From Polytrichum commune (lineage: Eukaryota > Streptophyta > Polytrichopsida > Polytrichales > Polytrichaceae), in NCBI GenBank assembly GCA_950295325.1, contig OX485806.1, positions 10,974,001-11,038,000 on the forward strand: a DNA stretch of 64,000 nucleotides, read 5' to 3'. How positions within the stretch are numbered: the first letter of the stretch is position 1; each line of letters opens with the position of its first letter. Made by a program: the position numbers and the translations under genes. Shown in pieces: positions 337-51,100 of the stretch. Under the pieces are notes generated by a model that saw only the letters and a program-made list of their open reading frames with translations, was not told where the DNA came from and did not search any database.

Positions 337-442
337 TGTCGTGTAGATAGCGATCGTGTGTCACTGCAACTCGAGTACCAACTACCACTAACAAATAACA
401 CCAAAACATAGCAAAGGCACACATACATAACACACCTCCACA
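337..442 (-). repeat. 106-bp LTR, inverted copy
   Basis: Read on the minus strand this begins TGTGGAGGTGTG and ends CTACACGACA. It matches the LTRs at 12822-12927 and 13264-13369 over the same 106 bp. As in the main element, a purine-rich stretch ending in GGGCA lies immediately before it. The sequence beyond its 3' end (below 337) differs from that after the other two copies, which fixes the LTR boundary. Confidence 0.8.
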
Positions 443-1221
443 TGCCCTCCCTTAGTTGATTATGGAGCCCCGCCAAACAGCTAAGACCAATGCCAATCCA
501 AAGGGCATAGATAATGAAGAATTAATTCGCAACCAACTAGTGTGCTGAACGTCATTCCAAGGAACTGTAGGTTGAGTGCAGTGTGAGCCCCATTTTTAAT
601 CGCCTCTGATGTTTGGCCATCAGATTCCAAAGAATTAATTCCACCGTCTCACGTTCGATCGCGTCTCTAAACCATAACTCCTTATTTTCCACAACACAGT
701 GGAAACCACACATGATCATTGAGTACGACTGGTGGAAGCACCAAGTACCGAAGATCCTCGACATCGAGGACGAGTCTGCTATCCAGATGGTAGAGAAGTC
801 AAGGGTGGCCTCAGGCATGCCATGTGCCAACCACGTTGACACTGATCACACAAGAGCATAGTAGCCGCTCCTTTCTTCTCCCCACACATAAAACATGAAA
901 GACCCTATGGCACAACGGCCACGATGACATGGGGCACAATTTTTGAAATACTCGCGACATTCCCTGCCATCCTTGCCTTCCAACAACAACAAACCACTCG
1001 GCAACACCTCCTTCACCCGAAGGACAGTGCACCCCGCCTTGACATCCAATATCGTAGGCGCCTCACATTGGAGATAAACATAATATCCCTATCAGAATCT
1101 CCGCAACTGGGGTCAGTAAGCACCGTTGCAAATGCGTGCATAACGCAATGTGTCACGGTGCTGAGCAATGGACAAATTTTCCATGGCCGTAGGCATGGCC
1201 CTCTGGAAGAATTGAGCACCC
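443..1221 (-). pseudogene. Truncated 3' end of the methyltransferase-type retroelement (integrase tail and PHD finger)
   Basis: The minus strand of this segment is homologous to 12008-12821 of the main element. It covers the integrase C-terminal region, the PHD finger (a Cys-Asp-Gln-Cys pair followed by Trp-His-Met and a Cys, then a Cys pair), the 3' untranslated region and the polypurine tract. Reading frames are broken in several places, so no protein is expected. Homology stops at about 1221, where the upstream integrase core should begin, so the copy is 5'-truncated. It shows that the PHD-bearing element has at least two insertions within 12 kb. Confidence 0.8.
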
Positions 1222-2344: not shown

Positions 2345-3460
2345 TCCGTTTTCGGTAACCCAAGTGACAGAGAACAAAGGTTAACTTACCACAGTAAACA
2401 ATTTGCAGCACTGCCACCTGAGGCACTCCTCAATATAATAATAAGCGCCTCCGTCTCCCAAGCTGTACCCTGTCACAGGCACCAATGAAGACAGAAATTA
2501 ACTTCGCTGACAAAGACGGGGACACGAGGGACGGCGTCCTTTGCCCTGCCCTGCGTCCCCCGCATGCACACTTATTAACATACTCAAAGTAACTTATATA
2601 TAATCCCTCCCTCCATGTAATTAAGCCGCCTTATAATCTCGGTACTGTACTCCCTCTTGAGGATGACACGTTTAGGAACACACACAAAAAAAGTCGTATT
2701 ATCGAGGTGTCGTCTTCTCATTTACTTTACTATGACAAATGGTGTAAAGTTGTGGTATTGCTGAGGGAGTATGAAAACATAAGTAATATGAGTTTAAAAG
2801 TATAGACAATGAGTTTGAGCGATATCGATGGTGTGAAAAATAATAACTTTTAATTAGAAACAAACATGAATGTTCTCGAGAACTCTTGGAATAATAAGAG
2901 TCCAAAGATCTGTGGTGTTGCCTACCCAAGTTAGCAACTGTCTTATCTAAATTTCCTATTAACTTTTGAAAACTAAGAATTTCATTAACACCAACGTATA
3001 AAGAATTCTCTAACAAAAAATGAGACAATAATGATGCATGACATTTAGCATCACTAAGCTTTATTATACGTGGAGCAACATCATTCACATCCACTGAATG
3101 TAGATTAATATCAAAATCAAAGTCTTATGCATGATTGGTTCCCAAAGCAGCATCCACCAACTCATCAATACTCATCCACCAATTCACGGCAACATACTAG
3201 GTAGGAGGCCACTCTAACCCTAATTCTCATTAAGTTCCCAATGGTATGTGAAGTTCCCAAGTAGTTCCCAAGTTGAAATGAATGCATTTTAGATGTACAT
3301 AACATAAATGAAAGGAATTTTAGCATTAACCACCTCTTTGATATGACAAAACATAGATTCTAAATATCGCATTATCAAGTGTCACAGTCGTATAAAAGAG
3401 GGAGTTTTGAACTAAAAAGTTTGGTGTCGCAAAAATGTGTCGTATTAACGAGGTTAGACT
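2345..3460. other. Non-coding; weak Stowaway-like candidate
   Basis: No gene is supported. The segment 2648-2771 is bounded by TACTCCCTC and GAGGGAGTA, a perfect 9-bp inverted pair beginning with TA, like Stowaway elements. A second GAGGGAG near 3398 and near-repeats of a GTCGTATTA phrase at about 2690 and 3438 may mark a different, larger decayed element. Confidence 0.3.
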
Positions 3461-3793
3461 TGTCACGGTATGCGGCGTCGACGGCCGCATCTTATCCGTT
3501 GGGTTTCATCCATCTAGATTTGGATGGATGAATCTAGATGTGGAGAGGAAGGCTCCTAAGTGAGGAGCCTCCTCCTTGGCTTGGCATTCTTGCCAAGTCA
3601 AGTCTTGTGAGTTAGTGTGTGGAGAGAGCTTGTTTGAGGTATAGATTGCATGATTTTGCAATAAATTTTGAGTTCTTCTTTCCCTACTTACACTCTTGGA
3701 TTCTCCCTTGGTGGAGTGAGAGATAGCTTGACTAGTTGTGTGCATTTGAAGAGAGATTTAGAGCTCTTGCAAGGGTTTGATTCTCTTCCTTCT
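3461..3793 (+). repeat. 333-bp direct repeat, upstream copy
   Basis: It begins TGTCACGGTATGCGG and is about 98% identical, with no length change, to 12930-13262. It contains a short hairpin-prone stretch around an ATCTAGAT core near 3510-3540. Because the downstream copy follows an LTR directly, this is read as the start of the element leader. Alternatively it is part of an LTR of another family that also begins TGTCACGG. Confidence 0.75.
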
Positions 3794-5306
3794 CACTTGG
3801 CAAGAATGCTTCATTTTTTTATGTTTTCTTCTTCATTCTTGAGATGTAATGTGCAAGGGAGGGCGTGAAGACAAGGAGTGACGAAGTTATGAAGTTCCGG
3901 AGCGAGAAAACCCCGGATTTGCGAAGCAAGATAAAGAATGTTTGCTTGTGAATGTCACTTCAAGGTGAATTGTAGTGACAAGTTGTTGAATTTTCCACGG
4001 AATTTTATGTCAATTGATTGCCTGCAAGCATGAATTTGTGAAGTGGGAGGTGAAGGGGACATTCTTGATCCTAAAAAGATATCAAACTGTTAACAAAAAA
4101 AAAAAAAACAGAAGAAAGAGAGGAAGAGGGAGGCGGTCTGCCTCCCTCCGCTGCTGGTCAGGGCTGCTGGTCTGCGCTGGTCTGGATAGCGGCGGCCATC
4201 TGCGTCTGTCCGCGGCCGCCAGTGTTTGTCAGTAGCCGCCTGCTGGGACAAGGGATCAGGGAGGTTTCTTACTTAATCCAACCTCCTGCTGGTGCAGCTG
4301 GGGCAGGGGATTGGGGAGGATTTTCACAAATTAACCAATCCCGACACGGGGTAGTGATCGGGAAGATTTTTGTTTGGACGTAATCGGTTTAGATCCGGGT
4401 GTTTGCAAGTCAAACCGGTTACGTATTAACACTCTTTATTTATTTATTTAGTTTTAGTTTTAGTTTTTCTTAATTAATCAATGCGTTAATGAATTAAAAG
4501 CGGACTTAATTTAATATAATTAATTTTAATTAATTAATTAGGTTATGTTTCCTTTCAACTTCTAATTTTTCTCTTCTCTCTAAGGGGTTAATTTCTTAGG
4601 CTTATTAATCAAGGACACAAGGAATAAACCTAAGCTCTTATGAAATATTAAAAATACTTGGGATTCTTTTTAGGGGTTGTGTTGTACGAAATTTCCGAGG
4701 GGTGTGTCATTGGGAATTAGGTGGCATGTGGAATTTTCGTTCGGCCTAAAATAAATTATTATTAGGGTCGAATTGTGTTTATCAGCACATATTCCTGGCA
4801 TTGTTGTGAGGAGAGATTCTTAGGTAGTGGTGAAAAAATGAGAGATGTGCATTTTCATTTCTTAAGCAATAGGGGCTCTTCATTTTGACAACCAACCGCA
4901 GGCGGGTGCCGGTTGGTCGCGGTCGCTTTCAATTTTTGTTTAAATGTTGTTTGGGGAAGAGGATCCAGTGCTGAAAATTGCATTGTTTTCTGTCTTTTGT
5001 TTTGGTACCTTCCCCCGTCGCGGGTTGTATTGCTGGCAGTTGTCGGCATTGCCCCATTTTGTGTTGTTATAGATTATGATAGGGTACTGTGGAGGTGAGG
5101 TCGGATTAATGACCGACGGGACCTTTGTTTGTGCACCAAGTGGGCGGTGCTTGTTTTCACTTGTGGTGAGGCTGGGTTAATGACCAACAGACCATAAGTT
5201 TTGGTGGTGGTTGTAGGTGCAGGTTGCCTTTGACCCTTTTTCTCTTTGTACCTGGATACTAATTCATTTTGGGTTGTTGATTCGGTGACCATCCCATTGT
5301 GGGTTT
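3794..5306 (+). other. Retroelement leader (5' untranslated region)
   Basis: This long non-coding region precedes the Gag start. It holds an A-run near 4097-4110 followed by a purine-rich stretch, a GC-rich block at 4130-4240, and at about 4355-4433 a fragment of MITE family B (TGATCGGGAAGA terminus, then a CCGGTT core). No canonical primer-binding site for initiator tRNA-Met was found near its start. Confidence 0.5.
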
Positions 5307-8300
5307 ATGGTTACAACTCGTACTCAACACTATCGTTCTCCGTCCCCAGGAGCATCGGAAGGTCATCCCTCGGACCTCTCGGACGTTGAACTAGTGGTAG
5401 TACCTAACGAGGTTTTTCAGCCTACTTCGGCGTGGGGGACTATCACTCGGTCTCACGTCCTGTGGGTGGGAATCTTTGACGATATGGAGGACGAGACTAG
5501 GGGAGGGATACGGGACCGGTTTTCCGGTCGAGCAGGGACCATTTCTCTGCAAGACTGGAAAATCCGGTTTCGTACGTGGATGCGAGAGAAACGCCAACGC
5601 AATACCAATTTTAACGATTGGTATGCGTTCGAGCTTCTGCCTCAGCATTTGGAGCATGAAGCTCTCCAAATTTATGAGCAGTGGACGGAGGCTGATTGGA
5701 TGGAGCTGCGCCAGGTGGAGCGATACTGGGAGACTCGGGTTGAGTTGGTATCCACATTGAAGGAAGGCGCAGCTTCCAGTTTCATGGCCGTCCCTGAGGT
5801 TAAATCGGAGGTGTCGGAGGGAGTATTTGTGGTGGACGTAGAGGGAGTTTCTCCTGGTGAATCCAAGGATAAGGGTTCTGCTCCCGCTGTGGCGAAGACG
5901 TCGAGCCCCATTCTTCCATTCTCCCGTTATGCCCAGGCTACCCAGGCGGCTTTAGCCTCTTTGGGGGCTCCGCCAGTTTTTGAGCCGTTGCGGGCATTTG
6001 AGCTGCATCTACATGAGGAGTACGGAGGTTTCCGTCGGGACCAGATGCAGCGGATACAAGATTTTAGACGGGAGAAGGACGATACACCTCGTACCATGTA
6101 TACGAGGTTGGCGAGGTTTGCCAGAGAATCTAGAGGTGTGTTTGCGGAAAGTCAATTGGTAAAGGTGTTTTTGTCTAAGATTGACAAACGCCTTCTTGAC
6201 TTGGCGCTGCCCAGGATCATCATGAATTATGGTGGTCGGGCGACACTCGCAGAGGCATTCACCATTGTGGAGCAATGTGATCGTGCATTGTGTCAGCACG
6301 ACGCCACTGATTTGGTGTCCCTGCTAGTAGATTCTAGCAAATCCCGAAGAGTTCCGGTTGCGGCTGCGGGATTGGCGGAAGCCGAGGTAGACAAGACTAT
6401 GTATTGTTGGTCTTGTGGGCAGGCTGGCCACGCTAAGAAGGACTGTCCTTCGAAGCAAAGGCAAGCCCAAACCGTCACTACTCCGAAGCGGAACCCATTT
6501 GTTCCCGCTAAGGGCTCGGCGAAGGGGACGACGGGTAATCAGTTACCCAAGCAGTTGAAGTGTTCCCATTGTGGGCGGAACAATCATGCGGTGGAGAACT
6601 GCTTTGCTCTCCATCCTGAGAAACGTCCTTCTTCCGACCGGGAGAAGACGTTGGAGGCGAAGATTGGAGCCATGGAGGAGAGGTTCAAAAGCTTGGCGTC
6701 ATCCGGCCAAATCTTGGCCTCACCGTCTTCCTTCGGAGCTCAGGCTAGTTCTTCCACTCCGGATTACTATATGTTCGGAGCCTCGGGCGAGGTGGTGAGT
6801 TCCGCGGCCGTGACACGTGCTCAAGCCGTGTCACAATCCATACCTTCGACCACAAATGAATATGTGGCAAGCTCGCGAGCTCGGGACAATGCGCCTGCGG
6901 ACCAAATTGGTCAGACACGACTACCATTATCTTTTGGATTGGCCGATGCCGTCCAATTTGTCAGTGGTCGTCATCCAAATGATGAGGTTTCACATTCAGC
7001 GACCGATGTGGCGCACACGTTGGCATCCAAGGTGTTGCACACACCTTTGTTCACGGCCATGGAATGGTCATCGCCAGAGTTTCAACCTGCTAAGGTTTTT
7101 TACTTAGCAGGTAGGATTTTGGAAGGGAAGGCATCCTTACCTTCTTTGACTGTGGCTCAAGCCACTACGGACATCCCTGCTTCTGAAGATCCTGAAGATG
7201 TGGCCAAACGGCGAGCGAGACTTGCGGCAGAGACCATTGCGTCTTTTGACGCACACGCCTTAGATGACAAAGCACCGACCACGTCTTATGACTCACCAGT
7301 ATCCGCGGGTGCATCCTATCTGTCTGATGTCGCTGCTAGACCTGTCCGCGAGCGCCGCGGCATTCGATCCGGCGTTGTGCGTATGGTCAATGATACCGGA
7401 ATTTTGGTGGTCAGTCGCACTGGGAGCAATGCTACTCGGGTTGCTCCCCGTTGTGTGATGATGGATTCAGGGGCACAGCCAGTTATGATCGGCAAAAGGC
7501 TTGCCCAAAAGTTGAGGTTGACGGCCGAGGATTTGGCTCCCTGTCCATTCACCATTGTCACATCCATTGGTCACGTGGAGCAGGCCATGGGTTATACTCG
7601 AGAGCCATTACAACTTAGCTTCCAAGTGAAGCCTGAAGATTCACCCGCACCTCTTCTTCTTAGGTGTGCGGTGACGGATGCGACCAACTATGACATTTTA
7701 GTTGGTCAGCAAGCACTTTACCCTTTGGGTTTTATTTTGGACAACTGGACTGAGGAGGCGTGGATCCGACCAGGTTGGTCGGCTGGGGATGGCCGCATGG
7801 AACTTATTCCCGTGGCTTTCGCGGCGGCCGCGACCATAGCACCATTATCTATGGTTTTTGGATGTGGTACTATGGTGGACACATTGCCTTATGGTTCCGC
7901 ATTGTTGGAGGAGTCATTGGCATTCATGGGGAGTACAGACGATCAACTGGATATAGCACCTGAGGGTGTATTGGTGCGCCATCCCAAGGATCCCCTTCCT
8001 CTTTGGCGTGATTCCGCCGAGCTATTTCGGAGGTGCGAGGATATTGTTCACTCTCTCACTCCTAGGACACCGGTCATATCATGTGTCCTCTCGACATTGG
8101 CACATCCCATTTTATGGCAGCCGCCAGACGCGGGGATTACTTTGGTGGAACTGTTTGGGGGCATCGGCACGGGCTTAGCAGCTGTATTGGAGGCTGGCCT
8201 CACGGTCAGACGGTATGTCTATGTGGACAACTCTCCAGTGTCCACCCGTGTGGCTCGTCACCATCTTCACCAGTTGATGGTATTGTACCCCCAGCAGTTA

Positions 8301-9149
8301 CACCCAACTGCCATTCGTGGGTGTTTTTCACGTCTCCCTCGTGATGTTACACTCATCAGTGAGGCCGACTTACGACACTTGGGCCCGGTGGATATGGTGA
8401 TTGCGGGATGGCCATGTCAAGGCCACTCACGTGCTGGGGCAGGCCGAGGTTTAGAGGATTCCAGGTCTAGCCTTTTCTGGGACCTCATCCGGCTTATGCA
8501 GTGGTGGTTTACCCACCAACCTTCTCCTCCAGGGTATATCTTCGAGAATGTAACTTTGTTGGGAGACTCTCAGGACAAGGTGTTGGAAGGCGGTCATTAT
8601 GTCCGTCAACACCTTGGACATCCCATTTTTGTGGATGCTGCGAGCATTGGTTCTTATGCCCACCGGCCTCGGTGGATTTGGACCAACCTCGCACCGTCAT
8701 CTAATTTAGCTGCAGCATTTTCTGCAGTGTCTTCACCTTTGGATCAGAAGGTGGATGACATCTTGGATCCAAACCGGACCTCTTTGCCGGTTGTTCGAGA
8801 TGATTTACCCCCGTTGGCATTGGTCAACAAAGTGGGGGCACCACGGAAGGCCTTTCCCACCTTTATGACGTTTCCACAGTCATTCGCCTTCCGCGATCGG
8901 GGGCCGGGTATGGTGTGGGATGCTAACACCAAAATCCACACCGAACCGTTGGCTGACGAACGGGAGCGGGCCATGGGATTCCGCACTGGCACCACCGCAA
9001 CTCCTAATATTTCTGAGGGCCAACGACGCTTCGTGTTGGGCCAAGCCATGGATTTTTATACCATGGTGTGGACTGTTGCTTTATGCCTTTCATTGCAAAG
9101 GCATCGTGGTGAACAGTGGTTGTCTCTGGGGGCAGAGGACTCTGGTTAG
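5307..9149 (+). CDS. Gag-protease-DNA cytosine methyltransferase polyprotein
   Basis: An uninterrupted 1280-residue ORF. Residues about 200-340 are Gag capsid-like. Two CCHC knuckles follow at C367-C370-H375-C380 and C419-C422-H427-C432. An aspartic protease domain has its Asp-Ser-Gly active site at 720-722. From about 945 to 1260 lies a C5-methyltransferase with motifs in conventional order: SAM-binding Phe-Gly-Gly-Ile-Gly-Thr-Gly (950-956), catalytic Pro-Cys-Gln (1036-1038), Glu-Asn-Val (1080-1082), Ala-His-Arg-Pro-Arg-Trp (1118-1123), Glu-Arg-Glu-Arg-Ala-Met-Gly-Phe (1218-1225) and Gln-Arg-Arg...Leu-Gly (1239-1245). Key residues are all present. Motif VIII and the C-terminal motifs recall Dnmt3-type enzymes; the unpermuted order argues against a DRM origin. 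The expected product is 5-methylcytosine in DNA, probably the element's own or target chromatin (inference). The ATG at 5307 is the first in frame. Confidence 0.9.
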   Translation: MVTTRTQHYRSPSPGASEGHPSDLSDVELVVVPNEVFQPTSAWGTITRSHVLWVGIFDDMEDETRGGIRDRFSGRAGTISLQDWKIRFRTWMREKRQRNTNFNDWYAFELLPQHLEHEALQIYEQWTEADWMELRQVERYWETRVELVSTLKEGAASSFMAVPEVKSEVSEGVFVVDVEGVSPGESKDKGSAPAVAKTSSPILPFSRYAQATQAALASLGAPPVFEPLRAFELHLHEEYGGFRRDQMQRIQDFRREKDDTPRTMYTRLARFARESRGVFAESQLVKVFLSKIDKRLLDLALPRIIMNYGGRATLAEAFTIVEQCDRALCQHDATDLVSLLVDSSKSRRVPVAAAGLAEAEVDKTMYCWSCGQAGHAKKDCPSKQRQAQTVTTPKRNPFVPAKGSAKGTTGNQLPKQLKCSHCGRNNHAVENCFALHPEKRPSSDREKTLEAKIGAMEERFKSLASSGQILASPSSFGAQASSSTPDYYMFGASGEVVSSAAVTRAQAVSQSIPSTTNEYVASSRARDNAPADQIGQTRLPLSFGLADAVQFVSGRHPNDEVSHSATDVAHTLASKVLHTPLFTAMEWSSPEFQPAKVFYLAGRILEGKASLPSLTVAQATTDIPASEDPEDVAKRRARLAAETIASFDAHALDDKAPTTSYDSPVSAGASYLSDVAARPVRERRGIRSGVVRMVNDTGILVVSRTGSNATRVAPRCVMMDSGAQPVMIGKRLAQKLRLTAEDLAPCPFTIVTSIGHVEQAMGYTREPLQLSFQVKPEDSPAPLLLRCAVTDATNYDILVGQQALYPLGFILDNWTEEAWIRPGWSAGDGRMELIPVAFAAAATIAPLSMVFGCGTMVDTLPYGSALLEESLAFMGSTDDQLDIAPEGVLVRHPKDPLPLWRDSAELFRRCEDIVHSLTPRTPVISCVLSTLAHPILWQPPDAGITLVELFGGIGTGLAAVLEAGLTVRRYVYVDNSPVSTRVARHHLHQLMVLYPQQLHPTAIRGCFSRLPRDVTLISEADLRHLGPVDMVIAGWPCQGHSRAGAGRGLEDSRSSLFWDLIRLMQWWFTHQPSPPGYIFENVTLLGDSQDKVLEGGHYVRQHLGHPIFVDAASIGSYAHRPRWIWTNLAPSSNLAAAFSAVSSPLDQKVDDILDPNRTSLPVVRDDLPPLALVNKVGAPRKAFPTFMTFPQSFAFRDRGPGMVWDANTKIHTEPLADERERAMGFRTGTTATPNISEGQRRFVLGQAMDFYTMVWTVALCLSLQRHRGEQWLSLGAEDSG

Positions 9150-9398
9150 GGGGCACAGCGGTCCACACCCATGGAGGAGGGAATTCACGCCATGGTTGGA
9201 GAAGCCGAACGAATTTTTCAATTCGAGCAGCATGTGATGGAGGAGCTTCGAGCTCAACATTTTTACACTGCTTCAGTTTCTTCGCCTACGGTGGTGGCTT
9301 CATCATCACATATTGGTGGTGATGAAGAAATGTCAGACTCTAGTGCTAGCACCGAGACTGGGGCATGGTTAATGCCCCCTCCTCTCATTAGCAATTAG
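9150..9398 (+). pseudogene. In-frame linker between methyltransferase and reverse transcriptase
   Basis: After the TAG at 9147 the same frame stays open to a TAG at 9396. It encodes an acidic, Ser-rich linker with no recognised domain. The reverse transcriptase frame opens at 9392, one base back, so the two frames overlap by a few bases. This may be a one-base deletion in a once continuous ORF, or a real ORF junction. I see no classical slippery heptamer at the overlap. Confidence 0.5.
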
Positions 9399-10737
9399 AG
9401 TATGTGCCAACATCAGGTGGTTCTTCTTTGGTGGAGAGGAAGACTACAGAGTTTGATGATTGGCCATTGGAATTGGGCCCTCATCTCACTGGTGCTGAGG
9501 CACGGAAAATACGAGCATTTATTCGCTCGTACCGTAGGTGTTTTGGTTTTAGCCTTCAAGATCTTGAAGGTTATTAAGGAAAGCCCATCCACATTCAGTT
9601 GGAGGACGACCATCCCATTTTTCGGAGACCTTATAGGCTCAGTGTTTCCGAGCGGAGTGGCGTTCAGGCTCGTTGCCGAGAGCTTTTGGCAGCAAGGCTC
9701 ATCGAACTTTCCAACGGGGAGTATGCTTGTGCTACGGTTATGCCATCGAAAAATGATATCTTTGGCAATTGGACGGAGAAGCGGATGTGCGGGGATTACC
9801 GTCCAGTTAATCGGATGACCAAGTCGGATCGATATCCCATGCCAATCCTGGAGGAGTTGTTCGATGCCCTCGGATTTGCTCGAGTCTTTAGCACGTTGGA
9901 CTTGAGATCCGGCTATCACCAACTCCCATTACTTGTGGGAGACCGAGTGAAAACCACATTATGGGGAGTTGATCAAGATGGGAAAGATCAACTTTACCAT
10001 TGGAAGTTTCTTCCGTTTGGCCTAAAGAATGCACATGCGGAGTTTCAAAGAGTGATGGACCAAGTTCTCTCTGGCTTACCCTTTGCTCGGTGTTACATTG
10101 ATGACGTTATCATTTTCAGTATAACACCACATGAGCACGTAAGGCATCTTCAAGCCGTTTTTGAGCGGTTGCAACGGTGGGGATTGCGCTTGCACCACGG
10201 CAAGTGCAAGTTTTTCCATGACCGGCTGGCATATCTGGGGCATATGATTGTTCCAGGAGGTCTTGGGGTACAACAAGCTAAGGTGGACGCCTTGCAGAAG
10301 ATTCCGGCACCGGTTGATGTGCCGAGACTTCGTGCTTTCTTGGGCTTGGCGAATTACTATCGGCGATTCGTCAAGAACTTTAGCTTGATCGCCAAACCTC
10401 TCACCATTCTCACGAGCAAGGACCAACCATGGACTTGGGGTCGTGAGCAACAACAGGCGTTTGAAACATTGAAGCAGAAACTGGGTACGGCTCTAGTGCT
10501 TCGACGTCCAGATGTCTCCAAATCTTTCCAGTTGCATACGGATTGGAGTTCATTGGGTTTGGGAGCAGTTCTCACTCAGAAGGATGATTTTGGCCGGGAG
10601 TATGTTGTTGCTTACGCTTCGCGAAGCAATAACACGGCGGAGGCTAATTATTCATCCTACGAGGGAGAAGCATTGGCGGCGGTATGGGCTATTGCTCATT
10701 TTCGGCCGTATCTTTATGGTCAGCACTTTACTTTAGT
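9392..10737 (+). pseudogene. Retroelement reverse transcriptase and RNase H, broken
   Basis: A Ty3/gypsy-type reverse transcriptase. The N-terminal conserved block around Pro-Ile-Phe-Arg-Arg-Pro-Tyr-Arg begins near 9610. The Leu-Asp-Leu-Arg-Ser-Gly-Tyr-His block is near 9899. The catalytic Tyr-Ile-Asp-Asp lies at 10094-10105. The thumb and an RNase H domain of the gypsy type follow (His-Thr-Asp near 10535). Breaks are an in-frame TAA at 9575, just before the conserved block, and the loss of one base near 10736, after which the frame changes. The role would be synthesis of element cDNA. This copy could give only a partial product. Confidence 0.85.
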
Positions 10738-12000
10738 ACTGACCATCAGCCGTTACGGTGGCTCATGGAGTCGGATAAGCTTACTGGGAAGCTTGCTAGG
10801 TGGGCTTTGTTGCTCTAAGAGTATGACTTTGAGGTGGTACACCGTGCTGGGATTACCAACCTGGATGCAGATGGACTCTCGCGCAATCCAAGTCCTTCGG
10901 ATGAGGACTTGACCGGGGCCAGGTGGCATGGAGATTGTGATCGAGAGGCGGTTCCAGGTTGGCACGCGGCTGCTTATGTCACTTTATTTTCTGGTGCATC
11001 TGTTGAGATTCCGATACAGGGCTCGGATGATGAGACTGATCGGCCTCAAGCTATTGCCAATATATGGGAGGATCTTCCCGTATTGCATAAGCTTCAACAG
11101 GGTACCTTTCCTTTGTCTATTTCGGCAATGGAAAGGGATAGGATTGGACATCGAATAACAAGGTTCCGTTGGGAGAACGGTTTGTTATTTCGATTGTGGC
11201 CGGATGGGACAAGGCGTATTGTTCCCAGGCCGGATCAGAGGGCCTCCTTGGTGCGACAAGTGCACGAGGAACTTGGCTATTTTGGCATACGCAGGACACA
11301 TTCGATGTTGCGTGGCCAATATTGGTGGACTGGCATGTATCAGCAGGTGGCTGCATATGTCGGGAGGTGTGAAGTTTGTAACCGGGTCAGGTCTAGCTTT
11401 AACACCTTATCACCTCAGTTACAGCCCTTACCTATCATGGGATTAGGCTACCGTTGGTCGCTGGACTTTGCAGGGCCGTTGGTGGTTACACCACGTGGAG
11501 CAAAGTACGTTTTGGTGATGGTGGAGCATTTTAGCAAATGGATTGAGCTTGTTGCTCTACCCCAGAACTCTGCAGAGTTGGCCGCGGCCGCCTTTTTGGA
11601 TCGTGTGTTAGCACGTTTTGGAGCACCAGCTGAGGTGTTAACGGACCAAGGGAGGGAGTTCCTTGGTGCTTTTGAGGAGTTGTGCACTAAGGCTCTCATA
11701 GATCACCACACCACCTCTCGGGATCATTCGGAGGCAGATGGCTTGGCTGAACGTGTTGTTCAGACAACCAAGCGTGGCTTGAGGAAGTATGAATTACTTC
11801 GGGGAAGCCACCGGGATTGGGACCTTATGTTACCATGGATTGCTATGGGCTATCAATTTAGTAGGCATACCTCTTTGACATCCTACAGCCTGTATCAATT
11901 ATTGTATGGACGTGAGCCTATACTCCCGAGTTCTATTCGGGAAAAACTAGCTCCTGTTATGAACTTGGATGACCCAGACCTTTGGGCAGAGTGTTTATAG
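10738..12000 (+). pseudogene. RNase H end and integrase, broken
   Basis: This continues RNase H in a new frame. There is a TAA at 10816 where homologues usually have Gln, then the His-Arg-Ala-Gly end of RNase H. Integrase follows: an N-terminal HHCC zinc finger (Cys pair at about 11370-11381), and a catalytic core with Asp at 11464, Asp at 11644 (in Thr-Asp-Gln-Gly) and Glu at 11749 (in Ala-Glu-Arg). A TAG at 11998 ends the open stretch within a segment that stays in frame and homologous on both sides, so it looks like a nonsense mutation. The enzyme would join cDNA to host DNA. Confidence 0.85.
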
Positions 12001-12537
12001 GAGCGGGCTCAATTCTTCCAGAGGGCCATGTCTATGGCCATGGAGAATTTGTCCATTGCTCAGCACCGTGACACATTGCGTTATGCACACATTCGTAGTG
12101 GTGTTTACCGACCTCAGTTGCGGAGATTTCGGCAAGGGGATTATGTTTATCTTCAACGTGAGGCGCCTACGACATTGGATGTCAGGGCGGGGCGCACTAT
12201 CCTTCGGGTGAAGGAGGTGTTGCCAAGTGGTTTGTTGTTGTTGGAAGGCAATGATGGCAGGGAATGTCGCGAGCATTCCAAAAACTGTGCCCCATGTCAT
12301 CTACCTATTGAGGGTAGAGTTCATCCTGAACTGGCTGTCGTACCAGAGGGTCTTCTATGTTTTGTGTGTGGAGAGAAGAAAGGAGCGGCTACTATGCTCT
12401 TGTGTGATCAGTGTCAACGCGGTTGGCACATGACATGCTTGAGGCCACCCTTGACTTCTCTACCATTTGGACAATGGAGTTGTCCTCGCTGTCGAGGATC
12501 TTCGGTACTTGGTGCTTCCACCAATCGTACTCAATGA
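12001..12537 (+). pseudogene. Integrase C-terminal domain with PHD finger
   Basis: This is the same frame as the integrase core, after the TAG at 11998. The first part, about 12100-12310, is an SH3/GPY-F-like integrase tail. Then comes a textbook C4HC3 PHD finger: Cys pair at 12358 and 12367, Cys pair at 12403 and 12412, His at 12427 and Cys at 12436, Cys pair at 12481 and 12490, with the conserved Trp two residues before the seventh ligand. PHD fingers typically bind histone H3 tails in a methylation-dependent way. Here the finger takes the place where chromoviruses carry a chromodomain, so a role in choosing insertion sites is likely (inference). Confidence 0.85.
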
Positions 12538-12821
12538 TCCTGTGTGGTTTTCATCATTTTATACCTGCCCAAATGGAAAATGATGAGTTATGGCATAGAG
12601 ACGCAATCAACATGAGGCGGTGGATTTAATTCTATGGGATCTGATGGCCAAACATCAGAGGCGATTAAGGATGGGGCTCACCTTGCACCCAGCCTACAGT
12701 TCCTTGGAATAACGTTTACCACACTAGTTAGTTACGGAGCAATTTTTCATTACCCATGCCCTTTAGATTGGCATTGGTCCTAGCTGTTTGGCGGGACTCC
12801 ATAGTCAGCTGAGGGGGGGCA
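12538..12821 (+). other. Retroelement 3' untranslated region with polypurine tract
   Basis: Non-coding sequence between the PHD stop and the LTR. The polypurine tract GAGGGGGGGCA occupies 12811-12821 and abuts the LTR start, the position where plus-strand synthesis is primed. The inverted copy at 443-560 matches much of this region. Confidence 0.75.
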
Positions 12822-12927
12822 TGTCGAGGTGTGTTGTTTATGTGTGATTTTGCTATGTTTTAGTGTTGTTTGTTAGTGGTGGTTGGTACTCGAGCTGCAG
12901 TGACATACGATCGCTATTTACACGACA
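12822..12927 (+). repeat. 106-bp LTR, first downstream copy
   Basis: It starts TGTCGAGGTGTG and ends TTTACACGACA, so its ends form the perfect inverted pair TGTCG/CGACA. It directly follows the polypurine tract. It differs from the copy at 13264-13369 at three positions, each a C/T difference. Confidence 0.85.
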
Positions 12928-12929
12928 GC

Positions 12930-13262
12930 TGTCACGGTATGCGGCGTCGACGGCCGCACCTTATCCGTTGGGTTTCATCCATCTAGATTTGGATGGATGA
13001 ATCTAGATGTGGAGAGGAAGGCTCCTAAGTGAGGAGCCTCCTCCTTGGCTTGGCATTCTTGCCAAGTCAAGTCTTGTGAGTTAGTGTGTGGAGATAGCTT
13101 ATTTGAGGTATAGATTGCATGATTTTGCAATAAATCTTGAGTTCTTCTTCCCCTACTTACACTCTTGGATTCTCCCTTGGTGGAGTGAGAGATAACTTGA
13201 CTAGTTGTGTGCATTTGAAGAGAGATTTAGAGCTCTTGCAAGGGTTTGATTCTCTTCCTTCT
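12930..13262 (+). repeat. 333-bp direct repeat, downstream copy
   Basis: About 98% identical to 3461-3793 and collinear with it. It follows an LTR with a two-base spacer and is cut off directly before the next LTR. The arrangement LTR, leader start, LTR looks like a second, tandem unit that has lost nearly all of its interior. Confidence 0.8.
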
Positions 13263-13263
13263 T

Positions 13264-13369
13264 TGTCGAGGTGTGCTGTTTATGTGTGACTTTGCTATGT
13301 TTTAGTGTTGTTTGTTAGTGGTGGTTGGTACTCGAGCTGCAGTGACACACGATCGCTATTTACACGACA
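13264..13369 (+). repeat. 106-bp LTR, second downstream copy
   Basis: Same length and ends as the LTR at 12822. It is followed at 13370-13373 by GACT, which is also the tetranucleotide just before 3461. Confidence 0.85.
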
Positions 13370-13373
13370 GACT

Positions 13374-13969
13374 GTAACTTTCTTCTCTTCACACTTGTAC
13401 GCCTGCCACGAAACCCAACCACAAATACTTTTATCCCCTCCGGCAGGATGTATTTGTTTTGCAGGAAATGTCACTCTAGCATTTTTGGCTACACACTGCA
13501 AAAACACACTACACAAAAATGAAAATATTTAGTATTGTTACCACCCTAGAAAACGTCATACTTTTAGAGTATGTGAAGGTGAACTTGAAATGCTCAAGTG
13601 CATTGCTTTGACTCTTCTTTTTTTGTTGGATTAAAAGCTTGTGTTGCTTGGTAAGTGAGCATATATGAAGGTCAATGGGGTTTGTTTTGGTGGATGGGTT
13701 GTTGGAAAGAGTTTCAAACGGACCCAAAACTCAATGTAGTGGAAGGAGTTGTTAGTAACTCCGTACGTAATGGTTTTGGTGCTCAAATGCCGTAGGACAG
13801 GGTAAAGTTAGGGGGGATTCGAACTTGGGACGTCATTGGTCGAATTGGGGTAGGACGGGGTCGTCATGAGCATATATATGTGATTAGTGTTGTGAGAGGC
13901 TTGTAAGGAGTTGCGAGGTCGACCATCGCATAAGATGTGGTATTGGTGAGTAGGGTTGACGAGGAACAA
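13374..13969. other. Non-coding
   Basis: No gene is supported. On the minus strand near 13817-13825 there is a tRNA B-box-like word (GTTCGAATCC), but no matching A box or acceptor pairing, so it is not called as a tRNA. Confidence 0.4.
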
Positions 13970-14202
13970 TGATCGGGAAGAGCCGGCAGTTATATTAGTT
14001 ACAAATGAAGCGGTTGAGTTTGAGAAATAACCAGTTGAAGTTCAAGACTGCATGAAAATTACTGATCATTTTAGAGGAATTTATAGAAGAATATACCCCA
14101 ATTTAATAAAGGCAAAACCGGAGGATGTCAACATGTAACCGGTTGGACTTGCAAACACTAGGATCTCAACCGATTATGAATGCCCAAAAATCTTCCCGAT
14201 CA
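13970..14202. mobile_element. MITE family B copy
   Basis: Its ends are TGATCGGGAAGA and TCTTCCCGATCA, a perfect 12-bp inverted pair. The interior has AACCGG-type motifs, the word GAAGTTCAAGACT, and an AT-rich centre shared with copies near 23.4, 27.2-28.0, 39.5 and 49.1 kb. Confidence 0.75.
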
Positions 14203-14419
14203 CTAATGAGGAATATATTAGCCGGAGAGGAGGTTGTTAGGGAGGGGGGGCTTGTGTACACAAGGCAACAATGCGAAGTTCATCAACACTCATGCCAAGT
14301 AAGTGAGAATCTTCAACACACTTTGCATGTGAATATCATTTCATGGTTGTGGCGCAATCAATTTTTAAAATTTAAAATTTAAATTTAAACTAATGTTTTT
14401 AATGTTTTTAATGACAATC

Positions 14420-27222: not shown

Positions 27223-27991
27223 TTTACAGATGCACCGGTTGAGGTTGAGGTTGGGGAATAAGGGCCGGTTTACACTACGGTGGAGAAGTTCACCGGTCAT
27301 GAAAAAAAGGGCGTTTCTCAATTGTGATTGGTCGAAAATGCAACTCTTGACCGGTGGGTGTTTACACTAGGTGAAGAAAACAATGGTGATGAACTTTTCT
27401 CATGGATGATAAAATGACATGGCCGCCTACATGGCGGCACTTTTTGGAGTTGGGCTTCTCCGGAGGAGGAGTTTCTTGTCCGGCCTCAAGAGGCCGGAGA
27501 AGCCCAACTCAATAAAAATATTTTATTGCCTTTAATTCTTCTCCGGCACATCCACCATTTGCCTCATATAACCATGTCTTGGCCAAGCATTCTTCACCAA
27601 CCGGAGGCCTTCTCCACCGTAGTGTAAACCGGCCCTAAGTAACCGGTTGAAGTTCAAGACTTCAGGGAAAGTACCCATCATGTTAGAGGAATCTAAAGAA
27701 TATACCCCAAATTCATAAAGAAAAACCGGAAGATGTCAACATGTGACTGGCTGGAATCGGAAACCCTAGGAGATTTTTGGGCACAATCGGTCGAGATCCT
27801 AGGGTTTCTGATTCCAACCGGTTACATGTTAACATCTTCCGGTTTTTCTTTATGAATTTGGGGTATATTCTTTAGATTCCTCTAACCTGATGGGTACTTT
27901 CCCTGAAGTCTTGAACTTCAACCGGTTACTTATTCCCCAACCTCAACCTCAACCGGTGCATCTGTAAACTACACTAAATATGATATTTAGT
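27200..27991. mobile_element. Near-palindrome of two head-to-head family B units
   Basis: Two inverted arms run from 27200 to 27771 (including an inserted MITE) and from 27797 to 27991, joined by a spacer of about 25 bp. Without the insertion each arm is about 195 bp and the arms differ at only a few positions. Both carry the family B words (CCGGTTGAAGTTCAAGACT, AACCGG) and both end in the ACTAAATAT palindrome. Such similarity suggests a young inverted duplication, or repair by gene conversion. Transcripts could form a long hairpin. Confidence 0.75.
27262..27635. mobile_element. GGGCC-terminal MITE (family A), 374 bp, TAA duplication
   Basis: Perfect 27-bp terminal inverted repeats start with GGGCCGGTTTACACTACGG. 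The element is flanked by TAA at 27259-27261 and 27636-27638. It sits inside the left arm of the palindrome, so it arrived after the palindrome formed. The 3-bp TAA target fits PIF/Harbinger-type transposition by a transposase encoded elsewhere. Confidence 0.85.
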
Positions 27992-35126: not shown

Positions 35127-36048
35127 TCACAACGATATTCGAGCCCAAGCCGACCGCGTCAATTTACTGCAGCGGACGGTCTTGCAGTTTGCATCGGGGG
35201 GCCAGATGGTGCCAAGTAAATTAAGAAGTTACTTGAATCTCTTCACGCCGTGTTTTGTTATGTATCTGCGGCGATCGCTGAATCCCAGGTGGACGTTCAA
35301 GGAAGCTGTTCATTCAAACATGTGTTCGTGTTTGCTGGTTCTTAAGCGGCTGTAAGGTTATCAATAAAGGAGTGTTTTGGCAGTTGTATGTGGAGGCATG
35401 CGTTCCTTGGTTGCGGCTTCTTAAGCTTGTGGAGAGGAGTATTCTTGTTAATAAGACGAGGTTGAGGTTGCTTGGACGTTGAGTGGCTTCTCGTGAGGAC
35501 TGATCGGTGGAGTTCAAAAGCAAGCCGGAAAGCCAGAAGGCGCAGGTGTGTGTGTGTTTGGTGTGTTGTTTCGAGGAGCTAGGGGTCGTAGTTCTGCAAA
35601 CTTACTTATTTGATTGAACTTTCTGCAAAGCTTGTGAGGATGATGATCCAAGCTTCTTGATGCGGGTTGGAGTGTCATCTTTTGGAACTTTAGTGGAAGA
35701 GGTTGAGGTTATTTTGTGCTCCGACTGAGGATGTGTAGGCCACTCGTAAGGCATATCTTTCTGGCGCAGAGTCTACGAGGTCATCTTTTCTCTGTGATTG
35801 AGTGAGTTTGTTATTTTTTTTTTCTCTTTTTCTTTTTGTCAAGTATTGAAGTTAGTGAACTTCTTAGAGTCGAGGCGAAATCAAGGCGACATCACTTGTT
35901 CTTGGTGTCTTGGTGTAACTTGGCGTCAATCTCGTAGTGACATTGAACATGGCTCCGTCTTCCGAAATTCTATGTGATGAGTTTCCTCACTGTTTCCTCT
36001 GTTCACTTTGTCAGGTTACGAGGATAAATTCTGGTAGTGGAAAGCACC
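35127..36048 (+). other. Upstream region of the gene at 36049
   Basis: No ORF is recognised. The tract TTTTTTTTTCTCTTTTTCTTTTTG near 35813-35838 and the splice-like TTTGTCAG near 36007 suggest a 5' leader, possibly with an intron, for the downstream gene. Confidence 0.35.
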
Positions 36049-36441
36049 ATGGGTTCCACTGTGATTATCAACCAAACGATGAAACCCTTGGACATGAAAA
36101 TTGGAAATTATCGATACTTCATTAACCTTACAACGGTAGACAAGAACGCGAGCTACACAGTCTATGTTGACTGCAACGACACTTATAGAGAGTACCGCCT
36201 TAAAAGCGAGAGCGCCTGCGAACCTCTTATTGTGAATTCTGACGAATGCGTCGACAATAAGACGATCATTATTAGGGAAGTGAACGGGCAGTTCGATGTG
36301 GAGATGGAGCCCCGAGAGATCAAGAAGCCAACCAATTTGCGGCCAGCCACACCGCCTGTGTCCGAGCCCGCGGAGAGGGATGTGAGCATGAGGAACAAGC
36401 GGGTGAAGGTCACTCCGAGCAAGTGGAGATTCCACTTTTAG
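36049..36441 (+). CDS. Small protein of unknown function (130 aa)
   Basis: The start codon has a strong plant context (ACCATGG). The product has about 85 residues of predicted beta-rich sequence, with Asn/Thr-rich turns, the phrase Tyr-Phe-Ile-Asn-Leu-Thr-Thr-Val near residue 23 and Asp-Thr-Tyr-Arg-Glu-Tyr near 45. A basic, Pro-rich C-terminal tail follows (Lys-Pro-Thr, Asn-Lys-Arg-Val-Lys-Val). It contains no signal peptide or membrane segment. It resembles small bryophyte proteins of uncharacterised DUF type as I remember them, but I cannot name the family with certainty. Composition looks coding, unlike the flanks. A related downstream flank appears at 15890-16265, so the locus may have been duplicated. 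Confidence 0.6.
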   Translation: MGSTVIINQTMKPLDMKIGNYRYFINLTTVDKNASYTVYVDCNDTYREYRLKSESACEPLIVNSDECVDNKTIIIREVNGQFDVEMEPREIKKPTNLRPATPPVSEPAERDVSMRNKRVKVTPSKWRFHF

Positions 36442-39080: not shown

Positions 39081-39533
39081 GTCGATACATTCATAGTCAA
39101 TCATGTCCATTTAACCGCTCACTAGGGTACCTATAATGCCGACATGGATGAGATCTATTGTTGGTCTATATATTTTTTAGGTGAATGGAGTTAAGGTTAA
39201 TATGGTAGCGGCTTCTGATTGATTACCCCCATAAGAGTTTTCATAACTGTCATAGTCAAGAATCGACATTTAGATGAGCAGTTATAATTTAACATATAGA
39301 TTGACTATGTTCTCTAGTAAACTTTACCACTTCAAATTTGTAGTTATTTTCATATTCATGAAATTCTCTCTCAAAAAAATTGCATTCTTCTTAGGATTTA
39401 TTTCTCTTCGTGAGAAAGGCAAATAGAATCGGTGAGTTTTTTTTTTTTTTTTGGTTTCTGTTTTCCTTGATTCCGGAAGGTATTCTGCTGCCAGTGTATG
39501 AATCCTACTTACCGAAGAGCAGGTTCACAGCAA
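39081..39533. other. Non-coding
   Basis: No gene; a T homopolymer lies near 39437-39452. Confidence 0.4.
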
Positions 39534-39748
39534 TGAACGGGGAGAACCGACCGCTAACAGATGGAACGGTTCATTTGGAGAAATAAGCGTTTGAAGTTCA
39601 AGACTTCAGGAAAATTCCCATTATTTTAGAAGAATTTAGAGAATATACCTCAAATTAAAAAAGAAAAGCCGAAAGTTGTCAACAGGTAGCCTGTTGGACT
39701 TGGAATCACTAGGATCTCGACCGACTATGTCTAAAAATGTCCCCGGAC
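39534..39748. mobile_element. MITE family B copy
   Basis: Left end TGAACGGGGAGA, interior GAAGTTCAAGACTTCAGG and GTCAACAGGTAGCC, right end TCCCCGGACATT. Diverged but collinear with 13970-14202. Confidence 0.65.
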
Positions 39749-47009: not shown

Positions 47010-48106
47010 TTACCGTGGACCGGCGCCGGGACGGAGCTCGGGGAAAACCGATTTAGGATGGCGGTACCGGTCGGAGGAAGCGCAGAAATGAATGTTCCCC
47101 GACATGAAGTCTTTCAACCCTTCGACATACCGATGCACACTAGGTCCCCATGGCTCCACCTCCCACTCCTCCGGCAACTGCGTCTCAAGCTCCGAAACCA
47201 TACCCGCATTCGAGTTCACAAGATCCACAGACCTCCATGCAGCTTCCGCCAAACTTAAGCCCTCGGTATCCATCAAAACCTTAAGCAAATTCCTCGGGTT
47301 ATCCTCCTCGATGGCCTCTCTCGGATACGAAAACAAGTCATTCACAAAGGAAGAATGCACCAAAGCTGCATTACCTAACGCCCGAACGGTTGGATGATTC
47401 CGCACCGAATCCGGAAGAAATGCGTTGTTAGAAAGCTCCACTAGCATGGTGAGAAGCTCCCCTCCGAAGTTCTGTGCACGGGCGTGCGTGTAGGAATCCA
47501 AAGTTTGCAGGTATGAGAAGTCGCCTGCGATGTGATTTGCATGTGTGGCGATGCATACCTCATGGTGTGCTAGCATCCCATCTGCAAGAGTTTCGACAAA
47601 TTCGGGTGAAGATAACCTTCGAAGCTCCTGGCCTAACTCCCACACCATTCCTTCAATCGGGACAGTGCTAGGGTTTGCTTCTTTTTTCAGAAGGGAGTTT
47701 ACTCGACGAAGGAATGCTCGGATGTTTTGAGGGCTGTCGCGGACGTGGAGGTCGTTGCAACATTCCTGGAGGAGGCTGTCGTTCGGATCGTCGAACACTA
47801 AATCGTCGATGAGGAGGAAGAGGTTGATCATCACGTAGATGGCGAAGAAATGGTCGGCGCTCACTGCTCCGTTGTACCAGAAGCTCGCAAGGGAAAGGGA
47901 TGATTTGGAGAACCACTGAAACGTCTGTTCCAATTTCCATCGTCGGCCGATTTCGAGCAAGTGTTGCTCGGCCGATGCTGAGAACTCGGATTCCCGGCGG
48001 GGTGGGATGCCTTTCACGGTGACGGAGCGGAGGAGGGGTGGAAGCTCGGTTGAAATGTCGGCGGTGTTGCTGCTTGTGGATTTTTTTGGTTCTAATTCCG
48101 TCCGAC
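47010..48106 (-). CDS. Microbial-type terpene synthase-like enzyme, main exon
   Basis: This exon encodes a class I alpha-domain terpene synthase of the kind found in non-seed plants (MTPSL). Visible motifs are an Asp-rich metal site Ile-Asp-Asp-Leu-Val-Phe-Asp-Asp (plus-strand about 47787-47810), an NSE-type site Asn-Asp-Leu-Phe-Ser-Tyr-Pro-Arg-Glu (about 47316-47342), and a C-terminal Arg-Tyr pair. The expected reaction is Mg2+-dependent ionisation and cyclisation of a prenyl diphosphate to a terpene; substrate and product cannot be read from sequence. There is no in-frame ATG at the 5' end. Instead a good acceptor (TTACAG) precedes the first codon at 48106, and a stop lies upstream, so at least one exon is missing here. 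The plus-strand side downstream is a triplicated 3' flank. Confidence 0.85.
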
Positions 48107-51100
48107 CTGTAAGTGCGTTAATCACAACACACGCATTAATCACGACAATGGCATCGGATGAGAAGCAGCCCCAGACAATTCACCAAACATATATGGAATT
48201 CTTCAAAGTTCACAATAGACTATTGTATGCTGAACTACATCTCAGACACTCTGGTCTGCACATGGTGAGAATTCCAAAACCTTTGTTGATTAATGTGATG
48301 AAGATGTTCATGACATAGCACATTCAATCAAAACCCAAAACTCCAGCTCTTGGATTCCCATTCTGCAGCCCCAAAACATTTAACAAACATATATAATTAT
48401 TCGAATTTTACAATCTATCGCCGAACATCACAGACACTCTGATCTGTGGGTGGAGATTATAATTAACTTCTGTTCTTTAATGCACAAGGCTCTCCCATGT
48501 GAACATCTTTATCCAAGATCCTCACACTCTATCTGTATCTGGAGGGACAATCAATTTCAGAAAAGGCAATTGCAAAATTTTGTTAGTTAAATCAATGGAG
48601 AAGTCTGTCCCATGTGAAGATCTCCATCATTCACTTGCAGAATGTTTTTCACACACTCCATCTATCTGCATGTGGAGAATCAAATAATAATCACCGACCA
48701 ACTCAAGCTCCCCACGCTCCAAATCCAAATGTTCGCTGCAAAACCAAATCCAACCACCTCCATCCAATCTCTCTATCCGGATGCACTAATCCTTCACAAA
48801 ACAAATCAAAAACTTCAATCCACAAGTCACTCTCCACCTCCCACATAGACAAAGCAAAACCCTTACATACCCAAAATTAAAAGTTGGTTGGTCTCACTTG
48901 CCTCAATGCCCACCATATATTGTTGCCCATAATAGCTATATATTGGGGGCATCTCGGTGTTTCGAATCTTAACTATTGTCATCCATAGTGTTTCGAACCT
49001 TAACTATTATCATCTATAAACAACGGAAGACGTGGTGGTGATGGTGGCGGCGTTGTCCCACCATTTTCATATATCATGTACGTCTAATGTATTTTTCTAA
49101 ATCTAAAAAAAGAGCGTTTCATGCGAAAGACCAGTGATTGGGGAGATTGTTGGGCATAATCGGTTGAGATCCTAGTGTTTGCAAGCCCAACCGGTTACAT
49201 GTTGACATCCTTCGGTTTTCCTCTATTAAATTGGGTTATATTCTATAAATTCCTCTAAAATGATTAGTAATTTTCCTACAGTCTTGAACTTCAACCGGTT
49301 AGTTCTCAAACTCAAGCGGTTCATCCGTAACTAACTACCAGTTCTCCCCAATCATAGCCAAAGATTACCCCCCCCCCCCCCAACCCCTTTCCTAAAGTGA
49401 AAAGGAGTGAGTACTCGGGGAGTACATGTACAATCGGTGGGTATGATGGGGGAAACCTGGGGAGGTGGCTACCATGGCATGGACATGGACAAACATCCAT
49501 ATCGTGGGTACACATGGACATGGGGGCCATTATGATTGCATAGGCTTAGGAGATTGAGGTAGTAGCCCCAGATTTTATTTTGGGATATACCCAAAACCGA
49601 TTTTTTGCGTACATATATCCAATACGTACATATTTTGGAACACAAATATTACTATATTACCGTGTATAATTCATATCCACATGTGCAATGGGCCCTAACA
49701 ACATGGATCCAAGCTAAGTTAAGTACAACCCTTAACCGCGCTCCTCTAGGCACGTTTTGATACCCCATCCATAGTATCCTTGGACACTAACATTTTTGGA
49801 ATTATGTGTACTTGGATTTGTGGCACCAACTAGGACGGATCATAGAGCCCACCATTGAAATAGAGCAATAGCATGCGGCGAAGAAGAGGCTATTCATTCA
49901 TGCTTACCTGCCCCTGTCAGAGCCATCTTCTAATGTATCTACCTATTTGGAGAATCGGCTTCTCGAACTCTTCAATTTATTGCAAGTCTGTGTGTTGGAT
50001 GACGAAATCCTATCGTATTCTCTTGTCTGTGTGAGGATTCTAATGAACTCCCAAGTGTACGAGTTTGCGAAATTTGACACCACACCCAGCAAATTAAGCA
50101 AATCTTAATTACGGTATTCTTAGAATTTTCACGTTAGCCTGTAATGTAGTCTGATTTCTGAACATCTCTGGCACTGATATCTGATCTGTACGTCGAGATT
50201 ATTGCAGGCTAATAGAGCGAATTATCGGATAGCTAGTATGGGCGTACCTCTCATTCATCCAACATTAAAGCCTTGGAAATAGTATGCGCAGCCCGGAGGT
50301 TTCCATTTTTCGTTGATTTGACACCGGAATTAGTTTCAAAGTCCCCAAATTAGGCAAATTGGCCACAAACCTATGAGGCGTCGAGTTTTTATGTTGCATG
50401 GTTGATCGAGGTGTGCTCGTATGTGTTAAATTCCCTCTCTCCAGGTTGATGGATCAGGGTAGACTTGGCCTATGTGAAGATCTACATCATATTTCGCATG
50501 TCCACAAATCTTCACACTGATCTGTATGTGGAGAATCAACCAATCCCTGCATTCTTTAATTCCTGCAACTTTTAATTTGATGCAATTACAAGTCTGTCGA
50601 GTACTGTTTGATGACATGATCGTGTGTTTGGACCCATATTTCACGAAACTGGCAAGGAACAAATTATACTGAAATAATCAGTTCTCCAAGTTCACAAGTT
50701 TCCATCCGAATCCATGAATCTCACCATCTTTCAGGTGAGATATACCATGGATTGCATGGAGTTCAATGCTTGATTCACTAGTGTGTAGTTGCCGTAAGGT
50801 AGATATGTCTCAGATGGTTGGTTTTTCCAACTACCCCACTTCTCCTAGGATACGAAACACGCGATCAGTACAAGATGGTTAGCTTAGCAAATCCAAATCG
50901 AGGTCACTTTCCGAGTGATTTTCGGAGCTCGTATGAATACCTGATTCACTATCAAAGTGCAGAGTCTCGTGCATGCTCATTGAATGGTCATGTAGGTCCT
51001 CCCGCCCCCCTCCCAAATTACAGTATGTTGACTATTCAACTTACAATTTGGTTACCATATTTTGAGCACGCAGTCTAATCCCGACCAAACCACATACCAC

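Follow-up and report, generated by a model that had tools for sequence, protein, structure and literature searches.

The element in the window

The stretch analyzed here, referred to as the window, comprises 64,000 nucleotides (nt) of contig OX485806.1 from Polytrichum commune (assembly GCA_950295325.1, positions 10,974,001 to 11,038,000). It contains a degraded copy of a high-copy Ty3/Gypsy-type retrotransposon family that encodes, among its proteins, a cytosine methyltransferase (MT) of the Dnmt3 type and an integrase with a PHD finger at its end. The element spans positions 3461 to 13369 and is flanked on both sides by GACT (Table 1). Its domain order is Gag (GAG), protease (PRO) and MT in open reading frame 1 (ORF1), followed by reverse transcriptase (RT), RNase H (RNH), a DDE-type integrase (IN) and PHD in pol; RT, RNase H, H2C2 and the rve integrase occur in the Ty3/Gypsy order, as judged from Pfam and from relatives. 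Pfam cut-offs were passed by the C-5 methylase, RT, RNase H, H2C2, rve (53.6 bits, cut-off 32.6) and PHD matches. The domains listed in a first-pass annotation, made from the sequence alone, were thereby confirmed, with the zinc knuckle and the protease below the cut-off; despite its score, the protease segment is alignable in many relatives. No Pfam match to a tyrosine recombinase family or to a chromodomain was found in the four ORFs of the element at E values up to 1, the place behind the integrase being occupied by the PHD finger.

The same annotation had read the domains as one coding series, which does not hold for this copy, as its ORF1 and pol pieces lie in different frames and are interrupted by stops. 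Relative to L001, a relative described below, the window copy has an extra stop at approximately 9.15 kb, a frame change ahead of the ORF1/pol boundary, stops at approximately 9.58, 10.8 and 12.0 kb and a further frame change at approximately 10.74 kb.

Table 1 Features of the element and of a related fragment, in window coordinates
Feature	Position	Strand	Basis or remark
3' fragment of an older family member, with integrase end/PHD, polypurine tract and a single B up to ...CACGACA	337..1217	-	84% identical to 12007-12927
Left 4-bp target duplication GACT	3457..3460	.	End comparison
Repeat A1, begins TGTC	3461..3794	+	98.2% identical to A2
A segment complementary to primer site, candidate self-primer	3584..3598	+	15 nt exact; 0/300 shuffles as long
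Putative self-complementary primer-binding site just behind A1	3795..3809	+	Complementarity; compensatory changes in L001 and in subfamily 2
ORF1, extent open in this copy (Gag, CCHC, protease, MT)	5307..9149	+	1280 codons
CCHC zinc knuckle	6402..6452	+	Pfam 17.9, below cut-off of 20.8
Aspartic protease core	7455..7595	+	Pfam 15.5, below cut-off of 24.3; relatives align
Dnmt3-type C5-cytosine methyltransferase domain	8139..9086	+	Pfam, sequence and fold comparison
TAG CAA TTA, stop with readthrough-type context at ORF1/pol boundary, pol frame	9389..9397	+	21/21 sequences, L001
RT with the larger part of RNase H, in one frame of the broken pol	9599..10912	+	ORF, Pfam
Integrase, H2C2 and rve core, another frame	10834..12000	+	ORF, Pfam
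Integrase C terminus and PHD finger (PHD 12358-12492)	12028..12537	+	ORF, Pfam
Polypurine tract TGAGGGGGGGCA directly before B1	12810..12821	+
Repeat B1	12822..12928	+
20-nt block TTTACACGACAGCTGTCACG across B1|A2, with palindrome GACAGCTGTC	12917..12936	+	Shared without change by window, L001 and two subfamily-2 copies
Repeat A2	12930..13263	+
Repeat B2, ends GACA	13264..13369	+
Right target duplication GACT	13370..13373	.	End comparison

Copies in the genome and a relative on a public contig

An MT search of the same genome (408 Mb, 64 contigs) gave 584 candidates, 126 of which were scored, with identities of 63 to 100%; in another search 40 of 951 candidates were scored. Two subfamilies were apparent, that of the window (subfamily 1) and one at 63 to 64% identity (subfamily 2). 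Stop-free MT rows in open frames of at least 1,340 codons numbered 15 of the 126 (counted by eye), and 8 of 20 further copies fetched from the MT onward had no interruption between MT and PHD other than one conserved TAG. The relative L001 is a 9,285-nt public contig with identical 127-nt ends, which alone are no proof of a circular molecule; it carries a 1,346-codon ORF1 followed by TAG and, in the same frame, a pol of 1,047 codons with PHD at its end. The suggestion that the MT segment is an assembly chimera, or the chance capture of a single copy, was rejected because of the 126 scored matches, which exclude its absence from other copies. The same order in L001, 70 relatives from a region search and the agreement of the pol and MT trees on their main split (see below) also speak against it.

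L001 is filed under a Synechococcales (cyanobacterial) metagenome-assembled genome, and protein P0074 under Candidatus Obscuribacterales; both are eukaryotic retroelement sequences, and their presence under bacterial genomes is probably contamination. The other three of the four loci from the contig search (L002 to L004) matched at 29 to 33% over parts and are filed as bacterial; only L001 was used.

Methyltransferase and PHD finger

The C-5 methylase match scored 43.6 bits (cut-off 22), although it covers only 82 residues, and the FxGxG region, Pro-Cys-Gln, Glu-Asn-Val and AHRxR motifs are present. Across 144 aligned MT rows, window included, the catalytic Cys was kept in 140 of the 143 with a letter at that position, the Glu of Glu-Asn-Val in 141 and the two motif-VIII Arg residues in 139 and 136. 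Both sequence and fold place the MT closest to DNMT3, phage and giant-virus methylases in a viral structure library being poorer matches. Sequence comparisons show the domain to be under purifying selection. Viral contigs gave no match with a single-protein query; two remote matches obtained with an alignment query were not used. Separately, in six copies (L039, L042, L043, L044, L045 and L047) the median synonymous divergence (dS) was 0.175 for the MT and 0.056 for pol, which suggests that MT modules were exchanged between copies or have different histories.

The PHD finger at the end of pol is of the C4HC3 type (Pfam 44.3, cut-off 24) and is 73% identical to that of L001, with third positions at 43%. 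Its nearest solved chains include CHD4, PHF12, KDM5, ATXR5, UHRF1, BAZ2 and PHF21A, and several PHD fingers of these types read histone H3 with unmodified K4. Animal Dnmt3 has an ADD domain with similar reading, which would be a parallel to the PHD finger of the retroelement.

Split repeats, priming and the boundary stop

The repeats are arranged A1-int-B1-A2-B2 (split direct repeats, int being the internal part) in place of two equal terminal long terminal repeats (LTRs). Forty loci, the window included, were inspected at both ends; this sample is nonrandom, taken from the best A and MT matches. It comprised 22 loci of the form A-int-BAB, seven of the form A-int-B and nine with a left A and neither A nor B in the fetched right stretch; one of the remaining two lacked a full left A and the other had neither. 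All 29 complete loci end TGTC...GACA, and 23 of them have exact 4-bp target duplications (approximately 0.1 expected by chance, 29/256), with five duplications showing one mismatch and one showing two. The 4-bp duplications and TG...CA ends point to a DDE integrase. Three subfamily-2 loci likewise showed split repeats and exact duplications, and the fourth (L052) had no repeat in the fetched stretches.

Among the 22 A-int-BAB loci the B1|A2 junction was uniform in 20 and the A2|B2 junction in 14, the rest of the latter varying by substitutions or a few nucleotides, one with an insertion. A1 and A2 were identical in three loci. The start of B differs between the window, subfamily 2 and L001, unlike the identical TTTACACGACAGCTGTCACG block.

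Pairing between the putative primer site and the A segment extended over at least 11 nt in 10 of 12 sequences; in subfamily 2 (ATTGTTGTCAAGT) and L001 (ATCTTTGTCAAGT) it covers 13 nt, the primer site having changed in step with the A segment. Priming by tRNA, assessed with two generic primer-site oligonucleotides, was rejected: the initiator-Met oligonucleotide had no match within three mismatches in window positions 3401 to 5400 or in L001, and the Lys oligonucleotide had none in the same window positions and six scattered matches with two to three mismatches in L001. At the ORF1/pol boundary, all 21 sequences have TAG CAA TTA, TAG CAG TTA or TAG CAA TCA, fitting UAG-CAR-YYA, a readthrough context known from tobamovirus work. 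ORF1 and pol share a frame in L001 and the open copies, with the TAG between them.

Relatives and their domain orders

A total of 306 proteins were collected from searches listing 120 of 172 and 120 of 665 proteins and from the region search. The pairing of a cytosine methyltransferase with a PHD finger in one retroelement, which the first-pass annotation had singled out, recurs among them: 43 have the order RT-RNH-MT-IN-PHD, six have MT-RT-RNH-IN-PHD (one with a weak MT match) and one has GAG-PRO-MT-RT-RNH-IN-PHD. A further 36 are RT-RNH-IN-PHD and 26 are GAG-PRO-MT; these two orders probably represent the separate ORFs of a single layout such as that of L001. MT only is seen in 118. Hosts with MT-bearing relatives include Marchantia polymorpha, Calypogeia fissa, Closterium and Pleodorina starrii. 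Klebsormidium nitens has proteins with pol and PHD (including P0262) and no MT within those proteins; its pol proteins fell outside the length filter of the pol tree.

The pol tree separated 84 rows, 77 of them bearing a PHD, from 26 rows that lack both PHD and MT, with an SH-like approximate likelihood ratio test (SH-aLRT) value of 100; P0229 and P0236 lie within the 84-row clade and have neither domain. The 39 rows with the MT between RNase H and integrase formed one clade (100), and an 85-row MT tree split the same two layouts at 99. This MT tree omits 12 long rows (including P0233, Pleodorina), rows of unknown position and rows shorter than 295 residues. The first MT tree (144 rows, 92 shorter matches omitted) required four changes for the 'mid' group, with long branches joined, whereas the 85-row tree united that group in one clade. 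As far as these quick, unrooted trees with SH-aLRT values only can tell, the MT appears to have travelled with pol and to have changed place once, since both trees have the main split in common.

Copies of this element family account for eleven proteins of Marchantia polymorpha whose records call them hypothetical or uncharacterized (P0021, P0023, P0024, P0026, P0029, P0030, P0031, P0033, P0035, P0040 and P0054). In two algal-type polyproteins, P0043 and P0047, an extra domain behind the PHD finger has DPWC...SPLF-like stretches and resembles a second, degenerate SAM-methyltransferase.

Comparison with known elements

De Mendoza et al. (2018; PMC5890265) describe a K. nitens element of the Gypsy type that has Dnmt3 and repeats like those of DIRS elements, and the precedents in dinoflagellates and charophytes named in the first-pass annotation are correct. 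This element, KnitGypsy-Dnmt3, is the closest known and shares the Gypsy domains, a Dnmt3-type MT, the DIRS-like repeat layout and purifying selection on the enzyme. Neither 'PHD' nor 'Marchantia' appears in the main text of that paper, and a self-primer, a leaky stop, 4-bp duplications and A-int-B forms do not occur in the sections compared, the comparison being one of descriptions. KnitGypsy may share the PHD finger, because the K. nitens pol protein P0262 has one (P0262 contains no MT). Judged by that description, the window family appears to fit KnitGypsy-Dnmt3 and to add a putative PHD reader, a candidate self-primer, a predicted leaky stop, 4-bp duplications, A-int-B forms and a wider distribution. 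SymbioDIRS-Dnmt3 is likewise a retrotransposon with a Dnmt3-type enzyme, but is a DIRS element, and the acquisition of Dnmt3 by Gypsy is called independent in the same paper (PMC5890265). Retrotransposon Dnmt3 is assigned to 'LTR Copia and DIRS' in a passage of PMC12344493, where PMC5890265 has Gypsy.

The sections of PMC4157794 compared give PAT, Ngaro and Viper elements the same A1-B1-A2-B2 split direct repeats; those elements have a tyrosine recombinase, whereas the window family has an rve integrase and 4-bp duplications. According to the parts of PMC6317226 compared, Ty3/Gypsy elements with predicted self-priming include Tf1/Sushi and the Tcn1 elements of plants. These are chromoviruses, whereas the window element has no chromodomain match; 'methyltransferase', 'PHD' and 'Marchantia' occur 0 times in the main text of that survey. 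No publication on a land-plant retrotransposon bearing a Dnmt, or on one with a PHD finger, was recognized among the entries listed in literature searches, subscription papers being outside their reach; the name KnitGypsy occurred in one of the papers covered.

Proposed mechanism and alternatives

The overall explanation that we consider reasonably probable is that of a Gypsy-type family with MT and PHD that would be self-primed and have a leaky stop, probably inserts through a circle and may have an MT acting on new DNA. The RNA would start in A near the segment at 3584 to 3598 and prime itself, as proposed for Tf1/Sushi elements, and partial readthrough of the TAG would yield more Gag-Pro-MT than pol. 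Because the polypurine tract precedes B1 and the primer site lies behind A1, reverse transcription would yield a BA-int-BA cDNA. Since the inserted form is permuted, this cDNA was probably closed to a circle, and the integrase would act at the conserved palindrome where B meets A; cutting inside one BA repeat after the cDNA ends were joined would give A-int-BAB, and cutting a one-repeat circle would give A-int-B. Action at this internal palindrome, not at the cDNA ends, would explain why the insertions are permuted yet have ordinary 4-bp duplications. More speculatively, the MT may be packaged with Gag and methylate new DNA before or at insertion, and the PHD finger may tie the integrase to nucleosomes, perhaps those with unmodified H3K4. 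The first-pass annotation proposed that the element could mark itself or its target, escape detection by the host, or survive in particular chromatin, which would be speculative too. The wider proposal, that a green-lineage Gypsy clade kept a methylation writer and a histone reader over deep time, moved the writer once and integrates through circular DNA with a DDE integrase at a repeat-internal palindrome, is offered tentatively, at slightly less than even chances.

Several observations weigh against this explanation. The window copy cannot itself make pol. The primer sites of L021 and L027, two of the 12 sequences, pair over 8 and 9 nt only. The sequence pairs used for omega share copies and some reach 1.1, and omega for the PHD finger within subfamily 1 is 0.65 (0 to 1.3) at a dS of 0.02, too little change to judge. 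CpG decay was rejected: the 79 differences between A1 and A2 comprise 6 CG transitions, 61 other transitions and 12 transversions, which is no CpG excess given the 7 CpG sites in A. Free opening of a two-repeat circle was rejected: it predicts an ABA-int-B form, which occurred at none of the 38 left ends, no left stretch holding B. Therefore, cutting must act on one side only, unless a DIRS-like scheme describes the process better.

The A-int-B copies could also have arisen once the element was in place, if B1 recombined with B2; these direct repeats of 107 nt are separated by 0.34 kb, and the product would have an identical appearance. This origin is quite possible, if somewhat doubtful, given that the form makes up 7 of the 29 complete loci and that no solo A-B was recognized among the A matches examined, though A1 and A2 are longer repeats; the latter argument is weak because A1 and A2 are 9 kb apart.

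Copying in the manner of DIRS or PAT elements, in which A2-B2 would be inherited through RNA and B1-A2 would serve as a splint restoring the ends, so that the A|B junction is not remade each round, appears rather unlikely. It would accord with the shared A1-B1-A2-B2 layout of PAT elements (PMC4157794, sections compared), with the uniformity of the A2|B2 junction across 14 of 22 loci and with the unseen ABA-int form. Against it stand the missing tyrosine recombinase match, the duplications and ends that point to a DDE integrase, and the adjacency of the polypurine tract to B1 and of the primer site to A1, which is the arrangement expected of a BA repeat. The scheme would also retain a pair of identical B|A sites, so that one-sidedness is explained no better.

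That the MT is kept for another job, such as RNA methylation or a capsid or structural role, instead of methylating the DNA of the element, is improbable. SymbioLINE-Dnmt, one tested retrotransposon enzyme, gave no DNA methylation in yeast, but the same paper reports that retrotransposon DNMTs can methylate CG de novo (PMC5890265), and the near-invariant catalytic Cys, Glu and Arg residues and the DNMT3-like fold and sequence favor DNA methylation.

Rather than a one-off capture, retrotransposon Dnmt3 appears to be a long-term component of an abundant Gypsy lineage that occurs in liverworts, in streptophyte algae and in one volvocine alga. Many young copies in one assembly, including those with identical A1 and A2, would allow self-methylation to be compared with that of ordinary elements. 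Whether an integrase can use circular cDNA is an old question, which the combination of permuted ends and DDE-type duplications makes accessible to sequencing.

Other features of the window

A dispersed repeat of approximately 200 to 236 nt, with copies 76 to 86% identical, occurs at 13969 to 14204, just behind the element, and at 27771 to 27967, 39531 to 39729 and 49133 to 49355. An ORF at 36037 to 36438 on the + strand matches DUF7748 (93.8 bits), and one at 47013 to 48143 on the - strand has a terpene synthase family 2 C-terminal domain (82.8 bits).
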